A stretch of 64,000 nt of DNA from Paenibacillus sp. MAEPY2 (GTDB lineage: Bacteria; Bacillota; Bacilli; Paenibacillales; Paenibacillaceae), in NCBI RefSeq assembly GCF_000499205.1, contig NZ_AWUK01000017.1:1-64000 (forward strand), read 5' to 3'. Numbering within the stretch: the first letter of the stretch is position 1; each line of letters begins with the position of its first letter. The notes under the pieces are model-generated. The model saw nothing but the letters and a program-made list of their open reading frames with translations. It was not told where the DNA came from and ran no database searches. Below are positions 38,146 through 43,451 of the stretch, in pieces. The translations under genes were made by a program, and so were the position numbers.

Positions 38146-39183
38146 CTATTCTTCCACAACACCAAGCGCTTTATTTTTCTCCTTAAAACGGCTGTTATGG
38201 GAAGACACATAAGCAACTTTCTCTGCTTCAGGATCCATATACAGTTTGGCGCTGTTTACCGCGAGTGCTGCATCCGTAAATGTACCAGCAATCAGATACA
38301 GTTTACTTCCGTAATCGACAAAGTCTCCTGCGGCGAAGACACCTGGGATATTCGTTTGCAGCTTCTCTGTTGTACTGACATGCCATTCACCAAGATCAAG
38401 TCCCCAATCCCGGATCGGACCAAAATCGCTCTTCATGCCATGGTTGACGATAATCGCATCCACATCAAGAATTTCGCTATCACCTGTCTCCACATGGGAT
38501 ATTGTCACCTGTTCGATGCTTTCACCACTTTGACTGTGCAAAGTATCAACGGCATACGGTGTACGAATATCCACTGAGGATTCTCTCATCCTCAGTACAT
38601 TGCGCTCCAATCCGCCAAAGCGGTCACGACGATGTACAACCGTTACTTGTTCTGCCAGTGCTTCAAGCTCATTCGCCCAATCCACAGCGGAGTCACCTCC
38701 ACCAGAGATCAGTACACGTTTGCCACGGAAGGGTTCCAGCTCTTGTACCGTATAGTGAAGATTGGTAACCTCATAACGGTCAGCGCCTTCAAGCTCCAGC
38801 TTGGCCATTTTATATATACCATACCCGATCGCCAATATGACGGTACGTGTCCAGTGTTGTTCTCCTGTAGCCGATGTCAGCAGAATCGTGCCATCTGGCT
38901 GACGCTCAAATCCTTCAATTTGCTGTTCAAACACAATCGTTGGCTCAAATGTTCTCGCCTGTTCTTCCAGCTGTTTTATTAAATTTTCACACAGAATGGG
39001 GGTAACTCCGCCAACATCCCAGATCATTTTCTCTGGATAAAAGAGCATGCGACCACCCAATTTATCCCGCGCCTCAATCAATTTGGTCTTCATATCACGC
39101 ATCCCGCTGTAAAATGCAGAATACATGCCGGCAGGTCCCCCGCCGATAATTGTTACATCATATAATTCCAAATGCTGATCCAT
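38146..39183 (-). CDS. Ferredoxin/flavodoxin--NADP+ reductase (YumC type)
   Basis: 345-aa thioredoxin-reductase-like FAD enzyme: FAD motif [16 protein letters not shown] near residue 13, NADPH motif [13 protein letters not shown] near 160, and [12 protein letters not shown] near 286. It has no CxxC redox pair, which separates it from true thioredoxin reductase and fits YumC-type reductases that pass electrons to ferredoxin or flavodoxin. The ATG at 39183 has GGAGG seven bases ahead; the longer frame was rejected. A Fur-like box lies upstream, suggesting iron control. Confidence 0.9.
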
Positions 39184-39225
39184 TTCGTTACCTCCATCAG
39201 TTCGATCCAAAGCGCTCGACTATTT

Positions 39226-39244
39226 GATATCGATTCTCATTATC
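39226..39244. promoter_or_regulatory. Fur box upstream of the YumC-like gene
   Basis: GATATCGATTCTCATTATC matches 15 of 19 positions of GATAATGATAATCATTATC and lies 43 bases before the start codon. It suggests Fur repression under iron-replete conditions. Confidence 0.7.
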
Positions 39245-39334: not shown

Positions 39335-40357
39335 CTATTTCACTTTGGGAGCTGCCAGTAAATGTTCGACGACAAAATCGAGCTGTTTGTTGATTGAATA
39401 TACATCCGAATAATAGAAAAAATCAAAATCAATTTCAATTAAACGACCTTCTTTGACAGCAGGTACACTGCTCCATACCGGGTTATCCGTCAGATTGTCC
39501 GCCCCTTCATATACCGAACGAAACACGTAGTCGCCCAAGTATTGGGGAAGAACTTCCATGGATACCGTTGAAGCTGCAGCTTCTGATACTTTATCTATTT
39601 TTTGTTGAACCTTTTCGGGTGCTTCCATTTCCAAGTACTCATAAATGGCTTGTGAGCCTCGTCCATATTGCTTGCTTTCTGCAATCGACATGCTTTTGAG
39701 ACCACCCTCGACAATGGAAACCGTTTTGTCCAATATTCCAGCATCTGCCAGCTTTTGTTTGCTTTCCTCTACTTTGCTGTTGAGATTATTAATTAAAACG
39801 TCAGCTTCCTGCTCTTTGCCAAAAATGCTGGCTATACTGTGGAGTCTTTCTTCTGTTGTCATTTTCTCATATGGGACATACACCGTTGGTGCAATATCTT
39901 TTAATAACGTGTAAGTCTCTTCTGAAGGAACAATAATCAAATCTGGGTCCAGATCAATGACAGCTTCAGGATTTGGTTCAAACCAGGTGCCCAGTGAATT
40001 TACACCTTCAAGCTCATTCTTATATGCAGCTCCGTCGTATACGTCCGATGTAGCAATGGGCTTAATTCCAAGTGCAACGACGTCTCCTTGGAGATAGAGT
40101 ACAACAACCCGTTTAGGATTTGCCGGAACAACAACATCACCCTTAACCGTGGGAACCGTGCGCGTTCCATTTTCATTATTCGTTTGGCTACCTGATTCTG
40201 ATGACGAGGATGCCGCTGTGCTGCTGGATGAGTTCGCATTGGTGCCTTCTCCCGTTGTCGGCGTTGTTGCGGAACCTGTTGAACAGGCTGATAAAAGCAA
40301 TGTGATGCTCAAAAGTGCAACCATAATCATGCTGGAGCTTGTTTTTCTTCTTTTCAT
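39335..40357 (-). CDS. Iron-siderophore ABC transporter substrate-binding lipoprotein A
   Basis: 340-aa lipoprotein read from the ATG at 40357, which has GGAGGG nine bases ahead. A type II signal peptide with lipobox LLSAC (Cys near residue 28) is followed by a Ser/Thr/Asn-rich linker and a FecB/FhuD-type periplasmic-binding fold (VVVPANPKRVVVL, VALGIKPIA, DPDLIIVPSEETY, ending in WSSVPAVKEGRLIEID). It should deliver ferric siderophores to a permease that is not in this window. The reading frame continues upstream without a stop into the AraC gene, and a Fur box lies 27 bases upstream inside that frame. Confidence 0.85.
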   Translation of the reverse strand: MKRRKTSSSMIMVALLSITLLLSACSTGSATTPTTGEGTNANSSSSTAASSSSESGSQTNNENGTRTVPTVKGDVVVPANPKRVVVLYLQGDVVALGIKPIATSDVYDGAAYKNELEGVNSLGTWFEPNPEAVIDLDPDLIIVPSEETYTLLKDIAPTVYVPYEKMTTEERLHSIASIFGKEQEADVLINNLNSKVEESKQKLADAGILDKTVSIVEGGLKSMSIAESKQYGRGSQAIYEYLEMEAPEKVQQKIDKVSEAAASTVSMEVLPQYLGDYVFRSVYEGADNLTDNPVWSSVPAVKEGRLIEIDFDFFYYSDVYSINKQLDFVVEHLLAAPKVK

Positions 40358-41290
40358 TAATGTAGACCCTCCGTCTATATATTGATAATGATTCTCATAA
40401 TCAATATATCCTCGCATCCATCTCCAGCCAATGGACGATTCGGAGAATTGTAATGGACGATCCTCTGCCAGACTCTGATCTCTTATTTTTCGCTGATAGA
40501 GCGTGGGAGAAAGGCCTACATGTTTTTTGAAAATACGGCTGAAATAATACACATCCGCGTATCCCACTTCTGCCGCGATTTCACGTAGGGTTGCATCCGA
40601 TCGCATAAGCAGATTCCGGGCCTCGGCCAGTCTTGTTTGAATGAGATAATCAATCGGACTGTGTCCTGTCTTTCGTTTAAATTGCATGGATAAATGACGG
40701 GAGCTGTAATTGAATTGTTCAGCCAGAAAATCCAAAGTGACCTGTTCCCTATAATGCTGCTGTATGTAGCGGAGTGTTTGCTCAATAGGGTCTGGAAGCA
40801 CCGTTCTTATCTCCTGCTGTGCCAATTGAAACGATAATTCATGAATAAATTGGTAGAACAAACTTTTCACTTGAAGTAAGTCCAGGCTGTCTGCCTGATC
40901 CCAAGCTTTCTCCAGCGCACCAAAATAGCGCATTAAAGTAAGCGGATCACTCGGCGTAAACCCGTATTGCAAAGAAAACGGAGCAACCTGAGGTTGTGGC
41001 AACTGCCATGTTTTACGATGACTTGGAAACACAAGGAATGCCCTGTAGAACAGCAAAAAATATTCAAACTTTTCGCTTACCCGAATATCCAGTGATGATC
41101 CTTTACCACCATGCAGAATACAGAATCGCTGTGCTTCATGTGCATTTCCATCCAATTTAAGTTGAGCTGCTGTATATAAAGGCGTTTGCCGGAAGCAAAT
41201 ATGACTCCTGTATTTCCCCTGCCTCCATGACGATCCGGCGTATATCCAGAATTTTAACAGCCGCTTGATTCCAGCATTGCATCTGTTCAT
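39335..41290 (-). CDS. Fused open frame: AraC-type regulator continuing into lipoprotein A (5' end frameshifted)
   Basis: A single 651-codon frame. Residues ~50-270 are an AraC regulator (LHGGKGSSLDI cupin end; HTH pieces LDFLAEQFNYSSRHLSMQFK and LREIAAEVGYADVYYFSRIFKK); residues 271-311 are a linker partly encoded by a Fur box; from residue 312 it is the lipoprotein. No stop separates the parts. The first ~45 residues of this frame are not family-like, because the real N-terminus (start 41300) lies in another frame. The regulator may be made as a fusion, or the lipoprotein only from its own start. Confidence 0.6.
   Translation of the reverse strand: MNRCNAGIKRLLKFWIYAGSSWRQGKYRSHICFRQTPLYTAAQLKLDGNAHEAQRFCILHGGKGSSLDIRVSEKFEYFLLFYRAFLVFPSHRKTWQLPQPQVAPFSLQYGFTPSDPLTLMRYFGALEKAWDQADSLDLLQVKSLFYQFIHELSFQLAQQEIRTVLPDPIEQTLRYIQQHYREQVTLDFLAEQFNYSSRHLSMQFKRKTGHSPIDYLIQTRLAEARNLLMRSDATLREIAAEVGYADVYYFSRIFKKHVGLSPTLYQRKIRDQSLAEDRPLQFSESSIGWRWMRGYIDYENHYQYIDGGSTLMKRRKTSSSMIMVALLSITLLLSACSTGSATTPTTGEGTNANSSSSTAASSSSESGSQTNNENGTRTVPTVKGDVVVPANPKRVVVLYLQGDVVALGIKPIATSDVYDGAAYKNELEGVNSLGTWFEPNPEAVIDLDPDLIIVPSEETYTLLKDIAPTVYVPYEKMTTEERLHSIASIFGKEQEADVLINNLNSKVEESKQKLADAGILDKTVSIVEGGLKSMSIAESKQYGRGSQAIYEYLEMEAPEKVQQKIDKVSEAAASTVSMEVLPQYLGDYVFRSVYEGADNLTDNPVWSSVPAVKEGRLIEIDFDFFYYSDVYSINKQLDFVVEHLLAAPKVK
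40384..40402. promoter_or_regulatory. Fur box inside the AraC-lipoprotein A frame
   Basis: GATAATGATTCTCATAATC matches 16 of 19 consensus positions, is nearly palindromic, and lies 27 bases before the lipoprotein ATG. Its codons read DYENHYQY in the fused frame. Confidence 0.8.
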
Positions 41291-41300
41291 TTAATTGCAT
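41157..41300 (-). pseudogene. 5' fragment of AraC regulator A (out of frame with the rest)
   Basis: From the ATG at 41300 (GGAGAG six bases ahead) a 47-codon frame reads WNQAAVKILDIRRIV and LLPANAFIY before a TAA at 41157-41159. It aligns with WNYAAVNIADIRYME and FPASTFVF at the same place in the neighbouring AraC protein B. The alignment then jumps to the 39335-41290 frame near 41171-41174 with about four to five residues missing. This shows a frameshifting deletion, or a sequence error, in the N-terminal cupin domain. Confidence 0.75.
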
Positions 41301-41419
41301 CGATTACTCTCCAATCCCAGTCTCACCCGGAACAAAGACCATGTACAGGCCAACGTTCTGTAAACCATCCTCTAACCAAAGTGTTAGCAGAGGTTCACTA
41401 TTATGCCTTCATTATAGAT

Positions 41420-41438
41420 GATAATAATTTTCATTATC
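41420..41438. promoter_or_regulatory. Fur box upstream of AraC regulator A
   Basis: GATAATAATTTTCATTATC matches 16 of 19 Fur consensus positions, 120 bases before the 41300 start and 55 bases after the end of lipoprotein B. Confidence 0.7.
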
Positions 41439-41492
41439 AACTGGTTTTTAACCAGGATTAGATTTCGCCAAATTACATTCCACTTAGGTCCA

Positions 41493-42497
41493 TTATTTTT
41501 TATTCGAAATTTTTGTGAACCAAGCTGCCAATTCCTCGGTCTGATCCAACGTTGCGATCGGGTCAAAGTACCATGAACGATCTGGACTCCATATATACAC
41601 TCGATCATTCTTGACAGCCTCAAGCGAACTCCACACCGGTTTTGTTTTCAACTCATCCACAGTTAGATTATCTGCTGTCAGAATAATGTAATCCCCAGCA
41701 AATTCAGGAATCGCCTCGGAAGACACTTCAACAAGCTGATCCTTCATTAATAGCTCTTTTTTATCTGTTGGAGGATTTAATCCAAGTGCACTGTATACGG
41801 CCTGACCTCCCCGACCAAAATTATCACCAAAGGCCAAGGGTCCTTTATCATAAAACTGCATGATCGAAACTTCTGCATCCACATCAATGGCATCATGAAC
41901 TTGCTTCTTTGCGTCTGCAATACGTGAGTCATAGTTGGCTAACCATGCCTCAGCCTCCTTTTCTTTATTCAGTGCTTTACCAAAATAAGCAATCTCCTCA
42001 TGGGTATTTTTCAACTCTCCATAAGGAACAACCAGAGTCGGAGCAATTTTGCTAAAAGAATCAAACAAATCCGGATCACCGGTGACAATCAGATCTGGTT
42101 GCAGTTCCAACACCTTTTCAAGAGAAATCGTTTCGTATTCCCCAATATTCTCTACGCCCTCAAGTGATTCGATAAAGTAGGGATTCTTCAGGTTCATCTC
42201 CGGTGTACCTACTGGCTTGATACCCAAAGCAATCAGGCTGCCCAAATATAAATCAACCACAATTCGTTTGGGTTCAGCCGGGACCGTGATATCTCCCTTG
42301 ACCGTCGTGATGGTACGAGGCTCGGAAGTGTTCGATTGGCTATCTGCCGTTACTGTGCTGGTGGCACTCGAAGTCCCTTTGCCTCCAGCTGCTTCTCCCC
42401 CAGAATTACTAGTTGCGCCTGGCGAGCAGGCACTAAGCAGTAAAGTAAGACTTAATAAAATAGTAAGCAGCATTCCCGTTCTTGTCTGTCTATTCAT
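41493..42497 (-). CDS. Iron-siderophore ABC transporter substrate-binding lipoprotein B
   Basis: 334-aa lipoprotein from the ATG at 42497 (or two codons earlier, 42503), behind CGGAGGAATA. Type II signal peptide with lipobox LLSAC, a Gly/Ser/Thr linker, then a FecB/FhuD-type binding domain (ITVPAEPKRIVVDLY, IALGIKPVG, LQPDLIVTGDPD, FGRGGQAVYSALGL, VWSSLEAVKNDRVYIW). Clearly a paralogue of lipoprotein A. No permease or ATPase gene is nearby, so it probably serves a transporter encoded elsewhere. It is in frame with the AraC gene upstream. Confidence 0.87.
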   Translation of the reverse strand: MNRQTRTGMLLTILLSLTLLLSACSPGATSNSGGEAAGGKGTSSATSTVTADSQSNTSEPRTITTVKGDITVPAEPKRIVVDLYLGSLIALGIKPVGTPEMNLKNPYFIESLEGVENIGEYETISLEKVLELQPDLIVTGDPDLFDSFSKIAPTLVVPYGELKNTHEEIAYFGKALNKEKEAEAWLANYDSRIADAKKQVHDAIDVDAEVSIMQFYDKGPLAFGDNFGRGGQAVYSALGLNPPTDKKELLMKDQLVEVSSEAIPEFAGDYIILTADNLTVDELKTKPVWSSLEAVKNDRVYIWSPDRSWYFDPIATLDQTEELAAWFTKISNKK

Positions 42498-43451
42498 GTA
42501 CATTATTCCTCCGTGTTTATATTGATAATGATTATCATCATCGTTATAAACATACCTTCTGGCTCTGCCACTGGAAATGTCATTTCGCGCCAAGGCCGAT
42601 GTCAGATCAGGCCATTTTAGCGTTCCAGACGTCTTTTCCTTGTATTGAAGGGGAGAAACACCTGTATGTTTTTTGAACATGCGTCCCAAATAATATCCGT
42701 CCGGATAACCGATGCCAGCTGCAATCTCATCCAAAGTAGCGTCGGTGTGCAGCAGCATCTCCTTGGCCTTGAACAAGCGAAACTGGGTCAAGTAGTCGAT
42801 TGGACTATAACCCGTCGCTTGCTTGAACTTGCGAGACAGACTTCTGGAACTGCTGCCGATCTTCTCTGCCAAAACGTGCAGCGTTAGCGGCTCGGCATAG
42901 GAGGATTCCACAATTTCAATGACATGGCTGACTTGATTCTTATATGAATAGCGATTCGCAGATTGCGGAATCTGTGCTGATATTTGTTCTACGAAGGGAT
43001 AGAATAGACTTTTTGCCTGAAAATGATGAATAGGGTTCTTTTGATCCCACAAAATGTGCATCTGTTTCACCTGCTCATAAAGCTCAACTGGTGACTTGGG
43101 AGCAAAACCATAAGTTAGCTGAAATGGATTCAGGTGCTCCATCATTTTCCCCAGATCGGTCCTTCCTCCACTTGGCAAGCTTGCTCTGTATATAAGGTAA
43201 AACAGGTTCAATCCAGATTGTCCAGCCTCAATATGCAGCATACTTCCCTTTCCACCATGGAGAACATAAAAACGACTCACCTCATGCTTCTGGTCATTCA
43301 TTGTCACATAGGCCTTCCCCTTGATGGTGAATACAAACGTGCTCGCAGGAAATGTATATGTTAGCTCCTCATAGGGGCTTAACTCCATATAACGTATATC
43401 CGCAATATTCACAGCAGCATAGTTCCAGAGTATGTAATAATTATTCCACAT
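41493..43451 (-). CDS. Fused open frame: AraC-type regulator B continuing into lipoprotein B
   Basis: An uninterrupted 652-codon frame. Residues 1-180 are the cupin/sensor part (WNYAAVNIADIRYME, RFYVLHGGKGSMLHI), residues 180-272 the AraC HTH domain (LHVLAEKIGSSSRSLSRKFK, LDEIAAGIGYPDGYYLGRMFKK), residues 273-318 a linker including DDDNHYQYKHGG encoded by a Fur box and a Shine-Dalgarno, and the rest lipoprotein B. B. subtilis Btr also joins an AraC domain to a siderophore-binding domain, but without a lipoprotein signal in between. Either a membrane-spanning sensor fusion or two nested genes. Confidence 0.7.
   Translation of the reverse strand: MWNNYYILWNYAAVNIADIRYMELSPYEELTYTFPASTFVFTIKGKAYVTMNDQKHEVSRFYVLHGGKGSMLHIEAGQSGLNLFYLIYRASLPSGGRTDLGKMMEHLNPFQLTYGFAPKSPVELYEQVKQMHILWDQKNPIHHFQAKSLFYPFVEQISAQIPQSANRYSYKNQVSHVIEIVESSYAEPLTLHVLAEKIGSSSRSLSRKFKQATGYSPIDYLTQFRLFKAKEMLLHTDATLDEIAAGIGYPDGYYLGRMFKKHTGVSPLQYKEKTSGTLKWPDLTSALARNDISSGRARRYVYNDDDNHYQYKHGGIMYMNRQTRTGMLLTILLSLTLLLSACSPGATSNSGGEAAGGKGTSSATSTVTADSQSNTSEPRTITTVKGDITVPAEPKRIVVDLYLGSLIALGIKPVGTPEMNLKNPYFIESLEGVENIGEYETISLEKVLELQPDLIVTGDPDLFDSFSKIAPTLVVPYGELKNTHEEIAYFGKALNKEKEAEAWLANYDSRIADAKKQVHDAIDVDAEVSIMQFYDKGPLAFGDNFGRGGQAVYSALGLNPPTDKKELLMKDQLVEVSSEAIPEFAGDYIILTADNLTVDELKTKPVWSSLEAVKNDRVYIWSPDRSWYFDPIATLDQTEELAAWFTKISNKK
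42524..42542. promoter_or_regulatory. Fur box inside the AraC-lipoprotein B frame
   Basis: GATAATGATTATCATCATC matches 17 of 19 consensus positions (18 of 19 when the minus strand is read), 27 bases before the lipoprotein ATG, the same place as in unit A. Confidence 0.85.

Follow-up and report, generated by a model that had tools for sequence, protein, structure and literature searches.

Btr (YbbB) is an AraC-type regulator in iron-siderophore uptake, according to PMC9609785, which cites Gaballa and Helmann (2007). A 2026 survey (PMC13293324) counts 229 Peripla_BP_2 genes that carry a second domain and lie within siderophore clusters of five genera; this domain is HTH_18 in 98.7% of them. Among the genera that average more than 0.5 siderophore clusters per genome, it reports the most PBP2 receptor genes per cluster for Paenibacillus (a ratio of 29.43). 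In the parts of the survey consulted we found no mention of a signal peptide or of a promoter between the two domains. The locus described here lies in a 64-kb window, that is, the whole stretch of DNA analysed (positions 1 to 64,000 of contig NZ_AWUK01000017.1 of Paenibacillus sp. MAEPY2). It consists of two tandem units on the minus strand, each formed by a single stop-free frame that leads from an AraC-type helix-turn-helix (HTH) domain (HTH_18) into a siderophore-binding domain (Peripla_BP_2). Judging from the comparisons reported below, we consider it probable that such a unit is one gene with two products, a full-length fusion of AraC, signal-anchor and binding protein on the one hand and a free lipoprotein controlled by Fur on the other, and that the linker joining the two halves is doubly coding.

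One reading frame for a regulator and a lipoprotein

The open reading frame (ORF) of unit 2 (41493..43451, minus strand, as are all the features of the two units given below) encodes 652 residues in the order AraC, signal-anchor and siderophore-binding domain, and its frame across the linker is common to 24 orthologous sequences, unit 2 included. Pfam matches place HTH_18 at residues 194-272 (42636..42872) and Peripla_BP_2, a FhuD-like domain according also to its nearest structures by sequence, at 41583..42245. Between them, and in frame, lie a presumed −35 element (TTTCCA, weak, 42572..42577) and, after a 17-bp spacer, a presumed −10 element (TATGTT, 42549..42554), a Fur box read as the codons DDDNHY (42524..42542), a Shine-Dalgarno sequence (GGAGG, 42508..42512) and the presumed start codon of the lipoprotein (ATG, Met 319, 42495..42497). 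Neighbouring ATGs stand at codons 317 and 319, and only the latter is invariant in 21 aligned close relatives. In both units the start codon with its ribosome-binding site is followed by a type II signal peptide, assigned by motif, which in unit 2 reaches its lipobox (LLSAC) at Cys342 (42426..42428). Unit 1 (39335..41290, 651 residues) has the same architecture, with HTH_18 at residues 189-267 (40490..40726), in-frame presumed −35 (TTGGCT, 40426..40431) and −10 (TATATT, 40403..40408) elements again 17 bp apart, a Fur box (40384..40402), GGAGG (40368..40372), an ATG (40355..40357), the cysteine of LLSAC (40283..40285) and Peripla_BP_2 (39425..40042). HTH_18 is above the Pfam cut-off in both units, and Peripla_BP_2 scores 71.2 and 93.3 bits for the two units (cut-off 27.5). 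In each, the Fur box abuts or overlaps the −35/−10-like elements recognised by sequence, the −35 of unit 2 being the weak one.

The internal Fur boxes, GGAGG sites, ATGs and lipoboxes had been pointed out in a first-pass annotation of the sequence, and on this point it was accurate. The near-consensus Fur boxes differ from the 19-mer by two mismatches at 40384-40402 and one at 42524-42542, the codons of the Fur-box region read NHYQY in both units, and the GGAGG sites, the internal ATGs (40357 and 42497) and the LLSAC motifs are all as first described. The 19-mer was specified by hand; allowing up to three mismatches, it gives eight matches in the window, some of them a single site found on either strand, whereas shuffled sequence gives 0.04 on average. 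The same annotation had described an uninterrupted frame in each unit, and this is true of both ORFs from HTH to Peripla_BP_2, but the start of unit 1 is not authentic, and the frameshift behind this had been missed. Relative to two aligned intact orthologues, unit 1 is short by 11 bp at about 41170/41171. The AraC frame that begins at the authentic ATG (41298..41300, read from 41300 and placed by orthologue comparison) runs into a stop, while the ATG at 41290 that opens the 651-residue ORF belongs to a different frame upstream of the deletion and joins the conserved frame after it. As the deletion lies near the true AraC start, the start of this ORF cannot be taken as authentic; the AraC profile matches the unit 1 copy only from position 47. 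The HTH, the linker, the internal promoter-like elements and the lipoprotein part of unit 1 remain open.

We then asked how often the frame stays open in relatives. For frequencies, only the AraC half was used as a query, in 75 genomes of the genus and in 24 genomes of other genera and families (with matches in 23 of these). In the genus, 150 matches were listed of about 290 (a hand sum of the genome table); 139 of the 150 lie in frames of at least 600 residues and 11 in shorter ones. Nine of the shorter ones looked split and were fetched (L059-L067): seven break in the signal peptide, past the lipobox or in the binding domain, and the linker itself is broken in two (L064, a degenerate copy, and L065). 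The other two short matches break in the AraC N-terminus (L022) and in the binding domain (L024). Outside the genus, 137 of 147 matches are in frames of at least 600 residues, four are in frames of 596 and six in shorter ones. Ten of these frames were read (L169-L178), namely the six shorter ones, two of the four at 596 residues and two more of 609 and 612 residues; the frames above 600 residues were read only in part and include at least two (L177 and L178) without a lipobox. Here the linker is broken in five matches (L169, L170, L172, L173 and L174), whereas the break of L171 falls within the binding domain. Two of the five, L169 and L174, are degenerate copies; L170, L172 and L173 retain a lipoprotein of 333-355 residues with its signal peptide. 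Together with L065 these three make four natural splits in which AraC ends before a lipoprotein that bears a signal peptide, and in L172 the AraC stop overlaps the ATG of the lipoprotein. Such splits should be useful for comparing function.

According to the first-pass annotation, the open frame might be maintained, and its idea would have been refuted by relatives that nearly always carry a stop in the linker. The opposite was found: the frame is kept in 148 of the 150 matches listed for the genus and in 142 of the 147 outside it, a few of these frames being signal-less Btr-like proteins. Split gene pairs as the norm can be rejected, the 19 frames fetched comprising eight that break in the signal peptide or later, four that are whole with no visible lipobox and seven with a broken linker. 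Stops reported inside other relatives were found, among those fetched, at the C-terminal end of the match (L149-L155) or within the binding domain (L070). Moreover, in 17 linker clusters (less than 60% identity) the AraC frame contains no stop, versus 26 and 91 in the other two forward frames, and the nine linker lengths observed, from 40 to 56 codons, are every one in frame. The product of the shuffle probabilities of finding no stop is about 1e-26, a figure that assumes independent clusters and is hence overstated. These clusters were drawn from open frames, and the counts made with the AraC half are less biased. A frame open by chance is rejected by the stops in the other frames and by the shuffles. 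The ratio of non-synonymous to synonymous differences (pN/pS) between the HTH and the Fur box is 0.38 for unit 2 (24 sequences) and 0.48 for unit 1 (27 sequences), compared with 0.07 and 0.15 for the HTH in the two orthologue sets. At the level of sequence comparison, it is thus confirmed that the open frame is maintained, with a coding-type constraint, and is not a product of chance.

The same data bear on the possibility that only the lipoprotein matters C-terminally and that the fusion is a tolerated by-product of a regulator gene which never had a stop of its own. The four natural splits, where the lipoprotein is separate from AraC, would fit this idea, as would unit 1, which retained its lipoprotein part despite the break in the AraC N-terminus. 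However, the linker is broken in just 7 of the 297 AraC halves (among the matches listed), three of them degenerate, the other frames are rich in stops and all the differing linker lengths are in frame. We regard a merely tolerated fusion as improbable.

A second layer of signals in the linker

The internal signals were compared in 38 linker clusters drawn from 125 units, all of them selected for a lipobox; L131, L132, L155 and L168, left out by the selection pattern, were inspected by eye. When the promoter is anchored on Ile/Val/Leu/Met, seven residues and Tyr/His, the −35/N17/−10 arrangement fits 35 of the 38 clusters, the misfits being L067, L160 and L166. TATNNT is present in 34 of the 35 anchored clusters and TTGNNN, 17 bases earlier, in 26. 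The anchor lies at most 12 bases from the best Fur match in 34 of them; in the exception, L167, it is misplaced far from the Fur match. Codon choice at these positions departs from what the amino acids and codon use would give: the second −10 codon ends in T in all 35 clusters (16.5 expected, z 6.6) and the first −35 codon in 33 (15.6 expected, z 6.2). Meanwhile, the residues written over the −10 vary, with Tyr or His followed by Ile, Ser, Asn, Thr, Val, Pro, His or Asp. In the Fur codons, synonymous changes are absent from both orthologue sets, including the 24 sequences of unit 2. A Fur match of at least 15/19 lies inside the linker in 33 of the 38 clusters and upstream of the AraC start, taken as the first Met of the frame, in 10, and an upstream Fur box as the main control was rejected on this count. 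The 19-mer scan gives one Fur-box-like site upstream of the AraC start of unit 1 (41420..41438).

As for the Shine-Dalgarno sequence, at least five of the six bases of AGGAGG are found at 23 of 37 internal starts versus 31 of 486 other in-frame Met codons, the internal start of each cluster being the candidate with the best Shine-Dalgarno sequence (L167 yielded none). GTG replaces ATG at the internal start in two clusters. The sequence sits in codon phase 2, 1 and 0 in 25, 10 and 2 clusters, respectively, and so persists while amino acids and phase change. Altogether, a Fur-controlled internal promoter, a Shine-Dalgarno site and a start codon look maintained at the DNA level. Among the options raised by the first-pass annotation, the production of both a fusion and a separate lipoprotein appears to fit best, given the maintained frame and the apparent DNA-level conservation of the presumed internal promoter, Shine-Dalgarno sequence and start.

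Several observations weigh against one gene with two products. Synonymous shuffles of the whole linker reach p≤0.05 for the promoter in none of the 38 clusters, for Fur in five and for the Shine-Dalgarno sequence in one; combined over clusters, the tests are clearly raised for Fur only, and the generic promoter score had no power over a whole linker. As these shuffles separate poorly, the DNA-level case rests on the position-specific tests; in these, the spacing of the promoter was set in advance by the anchor pattern, as were the positions of Tyr/His and Ile/Val/Leu/Met. Among the conserved HTH codons z ranges from −0.7 to 3.9, and neither the first −10 codon (z 3.8) nor the Fur codons (z 3.6-4.5) stand out much from the highest of these. 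The internal Fur match is weak (13-14/19) in 5 of the 38 clusters, and the −35 of unit 2 itself is poor. From the Fur box to the ATG (seven codons in each unit), pN/pS comes to 0.31 for unit 2 and to 1.32 for unit 1. Furthermore, pS is lower in the linker (0.28-0.32) than in the HTH (0.45-0.46), and the linker pN/pS therefore partly reflects DNA constraint. In this genome a full-length product of the unit 1 copy is doubtful because its AraC frame is broken. One locus of another Bacilli family, L155 (G511:C58), keeps the frame and lacks the lipobox cysteine. Finally, a literature search of partial coverage returned no title or abstract describing an AraC/lipoprotein fusion with an internal promoter.

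Distribution, binding domain and predicted membrane segment

The architecture recurs across Paenibacillaceae and four other Bacilli families. Near relatives of unit 2 include those in Paenibacillus xylanivorans, P. taichungensis, P. amylolyticus and P. xylanexedens. A search with the full-length profile at E 1e-80 gives matches in 303 of 394 Paenibacillaceae genomes; this number probably includes matches of the binding domain only and of Btr type as well. Of 348 sampled Bacilli genomes, 17 from the four other families have strong full-length frames, and in the loci read from 16 of these 17 the lipobox cysteine is absent only in L155. The loci L129-L168 were picked by a single-frame full-length profile match, which makes an open linker expected, and illustrate spread and linker anatomy, not frequency. 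The AraC-half profile finds up to 14 matches per genome in the genus and 15 outside it, some of which may be of Btr type. Plasmid records gave three matches, none spanning 80% of the query, with uninformative annotation.

The host genome (7.47 Mb) contains 27 Peripla_BP_2 matches. By frame and lipobox patterns, only units 1 and 2 combine a frame of about 650 residues with an internal lipobox; the other matches are 15 lipoprotein frames of 320-456 residues, nine AraC/binding-domain proteins of 430-593 residues that lack a lipobox and one fragment of 117 residues. All nine lipobox-less proteins score above the cut-off for HTH_18 and eight for Peripla_BP_2, the ninth being 0.2 bits below. In four host loci (L035, L038, L039 and L040), lipobox-less frames of 547-556 residues directly adjoin free siderophore-binding lipoprotein genes, a layout that is the unfused counterpart of the fusion units.

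The solved structures nearest by sequence to the binding domain of unit 2 are ferric hydroxamate-binding proteins, namely 3hxp (E 3e-47), 3g9q and FhuD2 (4b8y among the matches). Two glutamates, which we take to be the residues that dock to the permease, occur together in 54 of the 57 rows aligned from 56 fused units, which include many close orthologues, and in 14 of the 15 stand-alone lipoproteins of the host genome, but in only one of its nine lipobox-less AraC/binding-domain proteins. Because both presumed docking residues are kept, the fused domain appears suited to transport, which most of the lipobox-less ones do not.

This comparison bears on a cytosolic sensor related to Btr, in which the fusion would remain cytoplasmic, its signal peptide serving as a linker, and would sense the imported siderophore, leaving transport to the free lipoprotein. 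The nine lipobox-less proteins of the host genome speak for such a sensor, and so do L175-L178, signal-less relatives found outside the genus, of which L177 carries a remnant, NENYYH. Against it, all 38 clusters, which were selected for a lipobox and not for charge, have kept a hydrophobic stretch that leads up to the cysteine and is preceded by Lys or Arg; in addition, the fused domains keep the presumed docking glutamates, and eight of the nine lipobox-less proteins do not have both. On balance we find a wholly cytosolic fusion hard to credit. L175-L178 are whole frames of 596-612 residues with no visible signal peptide or lipobox, and the NENYYH of L177 stands at the position of the Fur-box codons. 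From its sequence, this remnant suggests an intermediate between the fusion with a lipobox and the cytosolic proteins of Btr type.

An AlphaFold model of the fusion, built on a shallow alignment of 21 sequences (mean predicted local distance difference test, pLDDT, 65), folds the AraC and binding domains separately. Residues 281-374 have a pLDDT below 50 and contain a helix (325-339). In this low-confidence model the order of HTH, single predicted helix and binding domain would fit the layout of membrane one-component regulators. The helix is short and resembles a signal peptide, which would also suit a polyprotein: Lgt and signal peptidase II would cut at the internal lipobox and leave a mature lipoprotein and an AraC protein on a signal-peptide stub, from which a stub protease would perhaps free AraC later, so that release of the regulator reports secretion. 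In addition, among the full-length loci read, L155 alone kept the fusion without the cysteine, signal-less Btr-like relatives aside; the 38 clusters, being selected for the lipobox, count nothing towards this scheme. However, a separately made lipoprotein requires the lipobox as well, and its conservation is therefore silent on processing of the fusion, and we know of no precedent for processing after a cytosolic domain of about 320 residues. Such a polyprotein is possible, although we think it rather unlikely.

Next to the units, in the region 38146-39244, lies a Pyr_redox_2 oxidoreductase that by eye resembles ferredoxin-NADP reductase and has a Fur-box-like site upstream (39226-39244, three mismatches); it is a possible partner for iron release. 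Inspection by eye of the ORFs listed for 36-47 kb of the window revealed no permease.

Proposed products and comparison with known systems

We return to one gene with two products, the explanation that we prefer. Transcription from the upstream promoter would give the full-length protein, made of AraC, a flexible linker, a hydrophobic signal-anchor with its lipobox and a FhuD-like domain. It follows from the reading frame that any ribosome that completes AraC would make the fusion, because AraC has no stop of its own. The codons of the joint would double as a promoter of the sigmaA type, an operator for Fur, and a Shine-Dalgarno sequence with its start codon. At low iron, Fur would leave its operator, and the internal promoter would then give rise to the binding domain without AraC, in the form of a conventional lipoprotein that serves an ATP-binding cassette (ABC) importer. 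This separate lipoprotein is strongly implied by the promoter-like elements, the Fur box, the ribosome-binding site and the start codon, together with the four natural splits that keep a lipoprotein. We infer that both products exist, and likewise lipobox processing of the fusion and its target promoters. The simplest topology would place the N-terminus inside and the C-terminus outside, with the regulator tethered beneath the membrane and the binding domain exposed. By analogy with Btr and from the layout, a fusion so oriented may sense the siderophore and control uptake genes; it would act as a membrane relative of Btr, reporting which ferric siderophore has arrived.

Several Paenibacillus siderophore receptors appear to carry their own regulator. 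A regulated promoter, an operator, a ribosome site, a start and a signal peptide kept in a translated linker across several families would show with unusual clarity how regulatory and protein code can overlap. Annotation would be affected as well, since the label "AraC regulator" hides siderophore receptors and the label "lipoprotein" hides regulators. Moreover, the question of how a Gram-positive bacterium senses which foreign siderophore is present would become directly testable. One could go further and imagine that many genes form a class of their own, each encoding as one polypeptide a transcription factor and the surface receptor through which it reads. Maturation or secretion of the receptor, through lipobox cleavage and proteolysis of the stub, would release or reorient the regulator; the joint codons would form a complete iron-controlled promoter that makes extra receptor, and the roughly ten copies of some genomes would serve different siderophores. 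A single doubly coded stretch of DNA would tie the supply of receptor to its sensing. We offer this wider scheme tentatively, and doubt that it holds as a whole.

Among known systems, Btr is alike in its AraC-type HTH fused in frame to Peripla_BP_2 and in its role in iron-siderophore uptake. It is cytosolic and has no secretion signal between its domains, whereas the units carry a signal-anchor, a lipobox, an in-frame Fur box, a promoter and a ribosome-binding site between the two halves and keep the presumed docking glutamates. With the NCBIfam model for Btr (NF049932), the units score 111.7 and 87.9 bits, well short of the cut-off of 900, and the best stretch is in the AraC part. Lipoproteins of the FhuD/FhuD2 type, the closest to the unit 2 binding domain in sequence among solved structures, share the lipobox and the Fur box; they are ordinary genes, whereas the frame of the units continues upstream into a regulator. 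Regulators such as ToxR and CadC have a cytosolic DNA-binding domain, one membrane helix and an outer sensor domain, and the layout proposed for the fusion would resemble theirs. The units differ in their AraC-type HTH, in the lipobox at the end of the helix and in the nested product that would consist of the free sensor domain. Lastly, genes with an in-frame internal start, such as those giving the short forms of CheA, IF2 and ClpB, make their C-terminal part alone. In contrast, the units appear to hold a regulated promoter, an operator and a signal peptide within their codons, and their two products would act in different compartments.

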